Shown in pieces: positions 672-30,571 of a stretch of DNA of 31,729 bases (within the stretch, counting starts at the first letter, position 1; every line of letters starts with the position of its first letter). Under the pieces are notes generated by a model, which saw only the letters and a program-made list of their open reading frames with translations, ran no database searches and was not told where the DNA came from. Source of the DNA: a virus. The stretch is taken from the IMG/VR virus record IMGVR_UViG_3300013132_000159, positions 1 to 31,729 of that record, one strand, 5' to 3'. The translations under genes were made by a program, and so were the position numbers.

Positions 672-680
672 TTCGCCTAG
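662..680 (-). repeat. Stop-associated 19-bp direct repeat, copy 2
   Basis: Identical to 394-412 and in the same position relative to a stop codon (677-679). The two genes concerned have unrelated protein sequences, so the repeat is not a trace of simple gene duplication. Confidence 0.75.
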
Positions 681-952
681 ACGTCCATGTTCAAGAAACG
701 CTCCAGGGTGTGCAGGTCGTTCATCGCGGCTTCGGCCCGTGCGACCGTGGGGTAACGGTGCACCAGGACGAAACCATGCTTATGCGTCACCATGATTCGA
801 CGGCCCATGCGGATGTAGTGGCCGATCGTGTCGACCGTTCCGGCCTCATCGTCCGAGTGGCCGTCCATCCAGGCGGCCTCCATGAAGACGGCCATTGGGC
901 CGTCGTGCTTGGTGGAGTGGGTCCGAGTGTTGATTCCGTTGGTCAGGATCAT
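677..952 (-). CDS. Hypothetical protein (91 aa), first gene of the leftward cluster
   Basis: A 91-residue protein from an ATG at 952 preceded by GAAAGGA (forward 961-967, 8-nt spacing). It has no recognised domain. The middle (around residues 39-70) alternates hydrophobic and charged residues in a beta-like pattern (TIGHYIRMGRRIMVTHKHGF), followed by a probable helix. The sequence contains several His residues but no CxxC motif. It is the promoter-proximal gene of the leftward unit, directly downstream of the control region with the 48-bp dyad, so it is probably the most strongly controlled of the three. Function is unknown. Confidence 0.7.
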   Translation of the reverse strand: MILTNGINTRTHSTKHDGPMAVFMEAAWMDGHSDDEAGTVDTIGHYIRMGRRIMVTHKHGFVLVHRYPTVARAEAAMNDLHTLERFLNMDV

Positions 953-1645: not shown

Positions 1646-1661
1646 TGTGACGGACGTCACA
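1646..1661. promoter_or_regulatory. CRP/GlxR-type operator (TGTGA-N6-TCACA)
   Basis: TGTGACGGACGTCACA contains the complete CRP-family consensus TGTGA-N6-TCACA and is a 7-2-7 perfect palindrome. Actinobacterial cAMP-receptor regulators (mycobacterial Crp, corynebacterial GlxR) bind this sequence. If the TATGTA at 1702-1707 is a -10 element, the site is centred about 60 bp upstream of the start, a classical activator position. Binding by a host regulator is inferred. Confidence 0.55.
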
Positions 1662-1697
1662 CAACGCCACCCGGAACCAGACCCGCCAGGCAGCCGT

Positions 1698-1739
1698 CCC
1701 TTATGTATCACCCCGAGCCGTTCATACCCTTATGTATCA
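1698..1739 (+). repeat. Direct repeats CCCTTATGTATCA with -10-like cores
   Basis: CCCTTATGTATCA occurs exactly at 1698-1710 and 1727-1739, a 29-bp repeat spacing (about 2.75 helical turns). The TATGTA cores resemble -10 hexamers without good -35 boxes, compatible with activator-dependent tandem promoters, or the 13-mers may be operators. Confidence 0.5.
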
Positions 1740-1866
1740 GGATGTCCGAATCGTGCCTGTCCATCCAACCTGCCACGATCAGGACCCCCCAACCCTTTCA
1801 AACCAAACGCCTACCCTGCCCCCAATGTCCAAAATGCACTGACCCGGCAAGTGCCCAGGCGCCCCA

Positions 1867-2030: not shown

Positions 2031-2148
2031 AGGGAGTAGCCCCTCTGACGGGCGACGCTGACCCACGGTTCCTACACGGTGGGCTGACTCCCTGGTGTTG
2101 GGAGAACTTGCTGGTAGTGTATCAGCGGTTTGTTGTTTGGAGGGTGTT

Positions 2149-4044
2149 TTGGGTCGTCGTCATATTCCGACTGAGGTTCGTGTCAGGTTTTTTAGCCTGT
2201 TGGACGATGGGTATTCGGTGTCGGAGGCTGCGGCGACGGTTGGGGTGCGCCGCGAGACTGGTTATGAGTGGCGTCGCAACGGGTTTGAGTCGGTTGTTGC
2301 GAATGGTCAGAAGAATCGGCAGAAGCGTGTCGATTTGTCGTTGTCTGATCCGGTGCGTCCTGACCGGTTGTGCGATGAGGCTGTTCGGGCGTTGGATGAT
2401 TTCGACTATTTCCGGTTGCGGTATTTGGGTCGGCGTCCTACACCGTGGCAGGCCGACGCCGCCCTACAAGTTGTGTCATGGTTGAATAGTGAAGATACCG
2501 AGTATGCGGTTATCAACTGTCCTCCAGGGTCGGGGAAATCGACCCTGTTTACCAACGACTTGTTGTTGTGGTTGATTTGCCGCGAACGGTCGATTCGTAT
2601 TCTGATCGGTTCGTCTACGCAACGGTTGGCTGAGAACTATTCCAATCGTCTGCGCCGCATGTTGGAGCGGGTCCGTCCCCTACCGGAGAATCCGTTGCAG
2701 GGACGGCCTCTTGCTGCTGAGGCTGCGTTGGCTCAGGACTTCGGACGGTTCCGCCCTCAGGCCGCATCGGGTGAGATGTGGACACGAAGCCAGTTCACGG
2801 TCGTCCAACATGATCTTGATGCCGTGGAAGATAAGGAACCGACCGTCACCGCATATGGGATGGACGCAGAATTCTTGGGTCATCGTGCGAACCTTGTGAT
2901 TTGGGACGACCTTGTGACCCGGAAGGTGTTGCGTTCCGGCGAACTCATCGAAAATCAGCGGAATTGGTGGGTGGAAGAAGGCGAAACTCGGTTGGAGCCG
3001 AGCGGTTTGTTGTTGTTGCAAGGCCAACGGATGGGTGCCGACGACCTTTATCGTTACTGTTTGGATATGGTACTTGATGAGGATGAGCAGGCGGTGATGG
3101 ATCGCCGCCACAAGTACCGGCATGTGATGTACCCAGCACATTACGAAGATAAATGTGACGGTAAGCATGTGAAAGATATGCCTGCGTGGCCGGATAGTTG
3201 CATGTTGGACCCTGTGCGACTCCCTTGGGGTGGCAGCAAGGGCCTCGCGACGATCCAACGGAACCGTGGCGACGCCTACCGGGTCCAATATCAACAAGAA
3301 GATGTAGACCCCGCCGAGGTTCTGGTCCCAAAACTGTGGGTCGATGGGGGCACAGACCACCAGACCGGCGAAATCTACCCTGGTTGTTGGGACAAGGGCC
3401 GAGAAATCGCTGAGGTCCCCGCCGGTTTGGCCCCACCGTTGTTGTCGATTGCGACGGCTGACCCGTCACCAACAAAGTTCTGGTCGATTCAATGGTGGTT
3501 GGTGCAACCTGCGACGAATCAACGGTTTTTGCTGGATTTGATTCGCCAATCAATGGACGCCCCCGACTTTTTGGATTGGAATGCGAACGCTGGCCGGTTC
3601 TTCGGGGTGATGGAAGAATGGCAGGAACGGTCAGCGGAGATTGGTTTCCCGATTTCTCATTGGATCGTGGAAATCAATGCGGCTCAACGGTTCTTGTTGC
3701 AGTATGACCATGTGCGCCGTTGGCAACGTCAACACAATGTGCAGATTGTGGGCCATTCAACTCATCGGAACAAGACCGACCCTGACTTTGGGGTGCAGAC
3801 AGTCAAGAATCTGTACCGTTTTGGGCAGGTCCGGTTGCCTGGCGGGGTGTTGACAGGACGTATCGCAGCGTTGAAACTGGTCGATGAAGTTACTAGATAC
3901 CCTCAAACTTCTACCGATGACTGTTTGATGGCACAATGGTTCCTTGAACACCAGTTGGCAAATGGTAGTTTGATGCGTATTACAGACCATGAACCTGTAA
4001 TGTTGCGTAGACCATCTTGGATGAGAAAGCGGGTGTTTGCATAA
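2149..4044 (+). CDS. terL: Terminase large subunit with N-terminal helix-turn-helix
   Basis: DNA-packaging motor that translocates DNA into the prohead through the portal and cuts concatemers. From the TTG at 2149 it is 631 aa. Residues about 5-42 form a homeodomain-like helix-turn-helix. The ATPase domain has Walker A PPGSGKST (125-132) and Walker B LVIWDD (249-254). The RNase H-like nuclease has candidate acidic residues D438, E508 and D590/D591. TTG 2149 is preferred because GGAGG lies 5 nt upstream and the HTH follows at once. The in-frame GTG at 2095 would add 18 residues but lacks a good ribosome-binding site. No separate small terminase gene is visible, so the HTH may supply DNA recognition. 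The stop overlaps the next ATG (TAATG). Confidence 0.93.
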   Translation: MGRRHIPTEVRVRFFSLLDDGYSVSEAAATVGVRRETGYEWRRNGFESVVANGQKNRQKRVDLSLSDPVRPDRLCDEAVRALDDFDYFRLRYLGRRPTPWQADAALQVVSWLNSEDTEYAVINCPPGSGKSTLFTNDLLLWLICRERSIRILIGSSTQRLAENYSNRLRRMLERVRPLPENPLQGRPLAAEAALAQDFGRFRPQAASGEMWTRSQFTVVQHDLDAVEDKEPTVTAYGMDAEFLGHRANLVIWDDLVTRKVLRSGELIENQRNWWVEEGETRLEPSGLLLLQGQRMGADDLYRYCLDMVLDEDEQAVMDRRHKYRHVMYPAHYEDKCDGKHVKDMPAWPDSCMLDPVRLPWGGSKGLATIQRNRGDAYRVQYQQEDVDPAEVLVPKLWVDGGTDHQTGEIYPGCWDKGREIAEVPAGLAPPLLSIATADPSPTKFWSIQWWLVQPATNQRFLLDLIRQSMDAPDFLDWNANAGRFFGVMEEWQERSAEIGFPISHWIVEINAAQRFLLQYDHVRRWQRQHNVQIVGHSTHRNKTDPDFGVQTVKNLYRFGQVRLPGGVLTGRIAALKLVDEVTRYPQTSTDDCLMAQWFLEHQLANGSLMRITDHEPVMLRRPSWMRKRVFA

Positions 4045-29777: not shown

Positions 29778-30239
29778 GTGGGTCGTGTCTATGAGGGTGG
29801 GGAATACAGGGAGTTTCAGTTTCCCCTTCTGATCGAACCGATGGGTGACTGGACCCAACGGTCGTTGTGTGCAGAGAAGGTGCGTGCCGGGAAGGCACAT
29901 CCCGACGATTGGTTTCCCCGCCGGGGTTCAGATATCAACGTGATTCGTCGTGCGTTGGCTATTTGTGACGAATGCCCGGTGATTGAGCCGTGTCGTGAGT
30001 GGGCAGTAAAGCACAACGAGTACGGCATTTGGGGTGGTTGGACGAGCAAGCGGCTGCGTCAGGTGCATTACGAAACGTCGCGGCAATGCAAGCAATGCAT
30101 GTCGTACTTTGCTGTGGCGAACGAGTTGGTGGGTCAGCGTGCCCGCCCAAGTTTCTGTTCTGAGACATGCCGGTTGGAGCGGAAGCGGGCGATCAACCTT
30201 CGGTCGCGTGAACGTCGCCGCATCGAAGGGCGCGAGTGA
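29778..30239 (+). CDS. WhiB-like protein fused to a C-terminal zinc finger (153 aa)
   Basis: GTG 29778 follows GGGAGGA with 5-nt spacing. The WhiB domain has the four [4Fe-4S] cysteines C31, C63, C66 and C72 (CDECPVIEPC) and the signature GIWGG (83-87) with basic residues after it. A second part has C104, C107, C127 and C131, a CxxC...CxxxC zinc finger, ending in an Arg-rich tail. WhiB proteins bind sigma factors or DNA and regulate transcription in actinobacteria; phage copies redirect host genes. The added zinc finger may give DNA contact. Overlaps the next gene start (TGATG). Confidence 0.87.
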   Translation: MGRVYEGGEYREFQFPLLIEPMGDWTQRSLCAEKVRAGKAHPDDWFPRRGSDINVIRRALAICDECPVIEPCREWAVKHNEYGIWGGWTSKRLRQVHYETSRQCKQCMSYFAVANELVGQRARPSFCSETCRLERKRAINLRSRERRRIEGRE

Positions 30240-30571
30240 TGGACGAATCGACTGCGTTTCTGCACGACTGGTTTGATTCGTTGCCTCGGCGCGAGTGGTA
30301 CAACGATGCTGCGTGTGCGGGCCAGAAGTGGCAAGACTTTTTCGCACGTTCTACCCGAAAAGTGTTTTGTGACTTCTGCCGTTGCTGCCCGGTAGCCGAC
30401 GACTGTTTGGTCTATGCACTCCGGGTGGAGATTGACTTGTTGAATGGGCGGGGCGGTATGTACGGAGGTACTACCGCAGAGGAACGCCACCACTTCGCCC
30501 GAACGTTGAAAGACGTTGGCATTAGGGTAGGTGATTCGTACCGTTCCGATCTTCGGAAGGAGGATCGCTAA
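30239..30571 (+). CDS. Divergent WhiB-like protein (110 aa)
   Basis: ATG 30239 overlaps the stop of the first WhiB gene. Cluster cysteines are C26, C47, C50 and C56 (CRCCPVADDC); extra cysteines C44 and C49 flank them. WYNDAACAG at 20-28 is typical of WhiB. The signature GVWGG is replaced by GMYGG (73-77), so the key Trp that contacts the sigma factor in characterised WhiB proteins is Tyr here. Likely a paralogue or counterpart of the first WhiB, possibly with a changed partner. Confidence 0.82.
   Translation: MDESTAFLHDWFDSLPRREWYNDAACAGQKWQDFFARSTRKVFCDFCRCCPVADDCLVYALRVEIDLLNGRGGMYGGTTAEERHHFARTLKDVGIRVGDSYRSDLRKEDR

Follow-up and report, generated by a model that had tools for sequence, protein, structure and literature searches.

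Does a phage of actinobacteria place its packaging and structural genes under a host regulator that responds to cAMP? The question is raised by the 31.7-kb virus record IMGVR_UViG_3300013132_000159, called here the window, meaning the whole stretch of 31,729 nucleotides that was analysed. Upstream of its terminase gene stands the palindrome TGTGACGGACGTCACA. We put at about 0.6 the probability that this palindrome is an operator for a host Crp/GlxR regulator, probably acting as a class I activator on the terminase-led operon. The estimate goes no higher because the candidate -10 box is poor, the site is single and a packaging-like motif lies between operator and terminase. A regulatory function of the site is likely, and a class I activator role probable. 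The same host-operator reading deserves greater confidence for similar sites in Beephvirinae phages of Streptomyces; such relatives lend the regulatory reading more support than the window does by itself.

The palindrome lies in a noncoding region of about 1.1 kb, C- and G-rich, between small leftward genes and a rightward series of genes, many of them structural, that begins with the terminase. The features are as follows.

677-952, minus strand: nearest leftward gene (91 aa), its start facing the operator across about 700 bp
961-2094, no strand: divergent noncoding region with operator, both copies of the repeat and packaging-like motif
1646-1661, no strand: candidate CRP/GlxR-type operator TGTGACGGACGTCACA, 0 mismatches to TGTGA-N6-TCACA
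1698-1710, plus strand: 13-bp direct repeat CCCTTATGTATCA, copy 1, with TATGTA at 1702-1707, a poor -10
1727-1739, plus strand: 13-bp direct repeat CCCTTATGTATCA, copy 2, identical, 29 bp downstream of copy 1
1841-1855, plus strand: conserved noncoding motif (T)GACCCGGCAAGTGCC, then a G-rich run, present upstream of the terminase in many relatives
2095-4044, plus strand: large subunit of terminase (phrog_38), which opens the rightward structural operon; its true start may lie further in, at about 2149
29778-30239: WhiB-family gene 1, adjacent to gene 2
30236-30571: WhiB-family gene 2, adjacent to gene 1

WhiB proteins are a hallmark of actinobacterial hosts, and with two such genes the host of this phage is almost certainly an actinobacterium. 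The window has no close relative in the collections searched: its terminase reaches 44-50% identity with those of many freshwater and other metagenomic phages, about 50% being the best value. Towards Beephvirinae Streptomyces phages, the terminase shows 33% identity over part of its length and a 611-aa protein, aligned from end to end, 25%. A search of genome contigs returned no prophage relatives.

An earlier note on this DNA had described the palindrome as a perfect TGTGA-N6-TCACA, and so it is: the match at 1646-1661 has no mismatch and is the sole perfect copy in the window. It is built of two 7-bp arms flanking a 2-bp centre, GA. Given the dinucleotide composition, chance would yield 0.038 perfect matches over the full window and 0.0003-0.0014 within the noncoding region at 961-2094; matches with at most two mismatches number 15 in the window, which is the chance level. 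Bare palindromes with arms of at least 7 and a short spacer abound, the window having 28 of them, so that the significance of TGTGACGGACGTCACA comes from its specific bases and its location, not from its symmetry.

Other identities of the palindrome were considered and rejected. The fold of 1620-1760 is no better than that of shuffled sequences (z 0.04), and no T run follows the palindrome on its 3' side, which speaks against an RNA hairpin or terminator. BldD-type operators have a spacing of 5 between AC and GT; here it is 4. PMC10033298 quotes the published consensus of Streptomyces coelicolor Crp, GTG(N)6GNCAC, and that of GlxR, GTG(N)8CAC. TGTGACGGACGTCACA fits both the Streptomyces and the Corynebacterium consensus. 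The sites of the Streptomyces Crp and Corynebacterium GlxR regulons are chromosomal targets, whereas this one belongs to phage DNA.

A class I CRP-dependent promoter, of the E. coli lac type, has its operator at about -61.5, or at helical-turn steps upstream of that, and a weak or absent -35. In the window, the start implied by TATGTA at 1702-1707 (itself deduced from the sequence) would lie 60.5 bp after the operator centre, in agreement with the roughly 60 bp put forward earlier. There is no -35: the best partner at 17 bp, AGACCC, matches at one position in six, as expected of a class I promoter. The repeats, also claimed in the earlier note, are indeed identical, CCCTTATGTATCA recurring exactly at 1698-1710 and 1727-1739; their description as -10-like did not hold up, since TATGTA matches TATAAT at only three of six positions and TANNNT, expected of a usable -10, is absent from both copies. 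We found no source for the 13-bp repeats. A scan for the pair CTTATGTATCA returned one match, which belongs to an array of AT-rich repeats on a contig of no relation to the window.

The closest counterparts come from isolated phages. The sample comprised 12 Streptomyces phage records from three Beephvirinae genera (Immanueltrevirus, Manuelvirus and Flowerpowervirus; GenBank OL455897, NC_048684, NC_048706 and others) together with Abafar. All 12 carry two TGTGA-N6-TCACA-type sites, matching at 9-10 of 10 positions, upstream of the terminase. A clear, strong -10 box (TATAAT, TATACT or TATAGT) implies a transcription start, and relative to it the centre of the proximal site falls at -60.5 to -62.5 (about -61.5). 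The distal one is centred mostly at -116.5 or -117.5, and at -107.5 in FlowerPower and Fabian. Nothing resembling TTGACA occupies the -35 position, which reads AAGTAC, AGACGC or TTTCAG; by likeness to class I promoters, such a missing -35 makes CRP dependence the expectation. Among eight distinct sequences, the two half-sites are 98% and 93% identical, the N6 centre 55-66% and the flanks 46-52%. At the level of sequence, this combination of conserved half-sites and free centre is the pattern of a dimeric protein footprint. No feature in the GenBank records is annotated under the site matches.

Treat and FlowerPower, whose genomes are complete, have no sites of at least 9/10 other than this pair. 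Two sites are not above chance for a genome of that size; it is their clustering at one promoter, rather than their total, that is non-chance. When IMG/VR was scanned with Beephvirinae terminases, the pair was present at all 11 loci with 81-100% terminase identity, two of which are already known genomes. Six further loci have 58-65% identity: three keep a single 9/10 site in the same place, and three have none that good.

We also scanned viral contigs for two sites 24-50 bp apart. Most matches, with a constant 40-bp gap, are codons of a major tail protein gene and were discarded as an artefact of coding; the real counterparts are confined to L164, L173, L194 and L218. For L173 and L194 we read the -10 as TAACTA within TATATAACTA, a less certain assignment. 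The tail protein gene of L147, L148, L150 and similar loci thus spells two TGTGA-N6-TCACA-like words, and counts of the motif that ignore coding context would mislead, given such tail-gene pairs in many metagenomic phages. A scan for the single palindrome gave 45 scattered matches. Another viral contig, L169, contains a tandem array of GTGACCAACATCACA-like palindromes around 13667.

The terminase upstream regions of Beephvirinae thus resemble that of the window in their divergent layout, in the TGTGA-N6-TCACA site centred about 61 bp before an implied start and in the lack of a -35. They differ in having two sites, a strong TATAAT-type -10 and sites placed after the end of a terminal repeat; in the window, a single site precedes the packaging-like motif and the -10 is weak.

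We propose that the palindrome would be bound by a cAMP-responsive regulator of the CRP family provided by the host: Crp in Streptomyces, GlxR in Corynebacterium and an orthologue in the actinobacterial host of the window phage. The Beephvirinae region would be built like a class I CRP-dependent promoter, with one dimer at -61.5, no -35 and a strong -10, and with another dimer at -116.5, five helical turns further upstream. With cAMP bound, the regulator would recruit RNA polymerase and turn on the rightward operon, terminase first and structural genes after. In the window phage, a single dimer site would act from the same distance on a weak -10 that forms part of the first of the TTATGTATCA repeats. 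Which protein binds, that it activates and does not repress, that it depends on cAMP and where transcription starts are all inferred. The earlier suggestion of a class I host Crp/GlxR operator for late genes is supported in part: the relatives' sites at -60.5 to -62.5, the lack of a phage CRP and the almost certainly actinobacterial host favour it, but the claim that the repeats are good -10 boxes finds no support.

Would the regulator rather be the phage's own, for example an HTH protein or a partner of WhiB that reads TGTGA-N6-TCACA? Such phages do encode WhiB and HTH proteins, and FlowerPower an annotated sigma-K-like protein (gp66, with a sub-threshold match to sigma region 4); moreover, the restriction of sites of at least 9/10 to the terminase promoter in Treat and FlowerPower would suit a dedicated regulator. 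However, there is no deviation of the bases from the published consensus of host Crp/GlxR, -61.5 is where CRP classically binds, and the word turns up again in phage lineages whose proteins are very divergent. Nor do the phages tested encode a CRP-family protein: the cNMP-binding domain (PF00027) and the Crp HTH (PF13545) were found in none of 11 records (the window, which is a fragment, and ten related ones), with positive controls. We regard a phage-encoded regulator as unlikely, if the least unlikely of the alternatives. The -10 boxes of the Beephvirinae terminase promoters are TATATATA-rich.

Packaging offers another explanation. In Treat, the leftward genes form the right genome end and the terminase the left end, with a 264-bp direct terminal repeat at both. 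In the window they adjoin, which makes it the joined-ends form of this layout; with their ends joined, Beephvirinae genomes show the same divergent arrangement as 961-2094. A motif TGACCSGG...TGCC occurs upstream of the terminase across very divergent phages (L002, L004, L006, L012, L024, L051 and L068). Because Treat has the similar CGACCCGGGGGTTG close to the right edge of its terminal repeat, we infer that this motif may be a packaging initiation signal. In the window it separates the operator from the terminase; the Beephvirinae operators come after it, so the operator positions are not strictly equivalent; by analogy, the window operator might lie inside that phage's own terminal repeat.

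The palindrome could then be a packaging element at the left edge of a direct terminal repeat, recognised by the terminase, with an incidental likeness to a CRP site. Projected from Treat (264-bp repeat, GACCCGG at 225), the window's repeat would span about 1616-1881, with the palindrome near its left edge. GTCACATGCC opens the Treat repeat, GTCACACAACGCC stands at 1655-1667 of the window, and some Immanueltrevirus repeats contain the palindrome TGTGCATATGCACA at 51. Yet this repeat of the window is a projection by analogy, none being observed there. Left-edge palindromes are not common to Beephvirinae either, each phage having a different one or none, and the CRP-type sites of that subfamily stand outside the terminal repeat (in Treat, site 1 is at 293 and the repeat at 1-264). 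A packaging role for the palindrome is accordingly judged a little less probable still than a phage-encoded regulator.

How far does the site extend beyond Beephvirinae? The motif had been fixed before relatives were examined, which makes them an independent test. A 10/10 site lies upstream of the terminase in three of 12 terminase clusters, namely the window, one group of lake phages and Beephvirinae; simulated sequence gave a mean of 0.03 clusters with such a site over all 12. As the window is the discovery case, the fair count is two of the 11 other clusters. A control stretch inside the terminase held no site of at least 9/10 in the members listed.

Some dozen freshwater loci of the lake clade have retained TGTGAATGTTTTCACA unaltered or, in L029, with a single terminal base replaced; L051 and L055 differ in the sequence downstream of it. 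Loci of the L055 type have it about symmetrically between a rightward TTGACA-N17-TATAGT and a leftward TATAGT or TATCCT. Relative to a promoter whose -35 is good, its centre is at about -53.5, out of class I phase; the lake clade thus supports a CRP-type site in this region, not the same geometry.

The site is absent from the relatives L002, L006, L007-L013 and L020 and from the more distant Beephvirinae-like L277, L278 and L280. Alignment of the window's upstream region with those of L002 and L004 revealed no operator there, and its two sister lineages have different operators or none. A possible third element, AGTGACATCCGTCACA, lies at -777 from the terminase in L024 (9/10) and may be due to chance.

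The least probable alternative is that the window palindrome arose by chance in noncoding DNA rich in C and G and has no relation to the operators of Beephvirinae. In its favour, 0.038 copies are expected over the whole window, many other motifs could have been picked, the -10 is poor, the sister lineages lack the site and coding sequence alone can yield paired sites, as most pair-scan matches did. Against it, the palindrome falls in just that noncoding region in which relatives too have the motif; about 0.001 or fewer copies are expected there, and its distance from an AT-rich element is that seen in the relatives.

The putative host operator has precedents in part. E. coli lac-type class I promoters share the operator sequence and the -61.5 centre; here, phage genes would come under a putative actinobacterial host regulator. 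The pir promoter of phage T1 is repressed by the cAMP-CRP of its E. coli host, so that host CRP couples phage gene expression to the metabolic state of the cell (PMC6737242). In T1, a proteobacterial phage, an induction regulator is repressed, whereas the architecture found here suggests activation of a late operon in actinobacterial phages. Our literature search, necessarily partial, found no paper on CRP/GlxR sites in actinobacteriophage promoters, which is weak evidence of novelty, and the paper on Abafar does not mention Crp, cAMP or promoters (PMC11536984). Control by host CRP is thus known from E. coli; we found no earlier report of paired CRP-type operators conserved at the late promoter of a Streptomyces phage subfamily.

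In Streptomyces, cAMP is linked to germination and antibiotic production. If real, the operators would provide a defined host-dependent late promoter and a direct, cheap test of how actinophage replication ties to cAMP. A broader proposition is that, through class I operators, transcription of the packaging and structural operon depends on cAMP-bound host Crp/GlxR in a whole assemblage of actinobacterial phages, which would range from isolates on Streptomyces to phages of freshwater and other metagenomes. We advance it tentatively, at somewhat less than even odds; if true, virion production would be gated by the carbon or developmental state of the host.

The leftward side of the window, where small genes occupy 1-952, has features of its own. 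The 91-aa gene at 677-952 is without a family match. Just upstream of its start, an inverted repeat at 985-1032 has 24-bp arms, 88% complementary, with no spacer. Between two leftward genes, a type II hammerhead ribozyme was detected at 613-678 on the minus strand with 54.7 bits (gathering score 37), and the related loci L011 (2744-2805) and L023 (3688-3749) contain hammerhead matches above the gathering score, likewise on the minus strand. A perfect 19-bp direct repeat, GGAGGATGGTTTCGCCTAG, occurs at 394-412 and 662-680, its second copy overlapping the end of the hammerhead.
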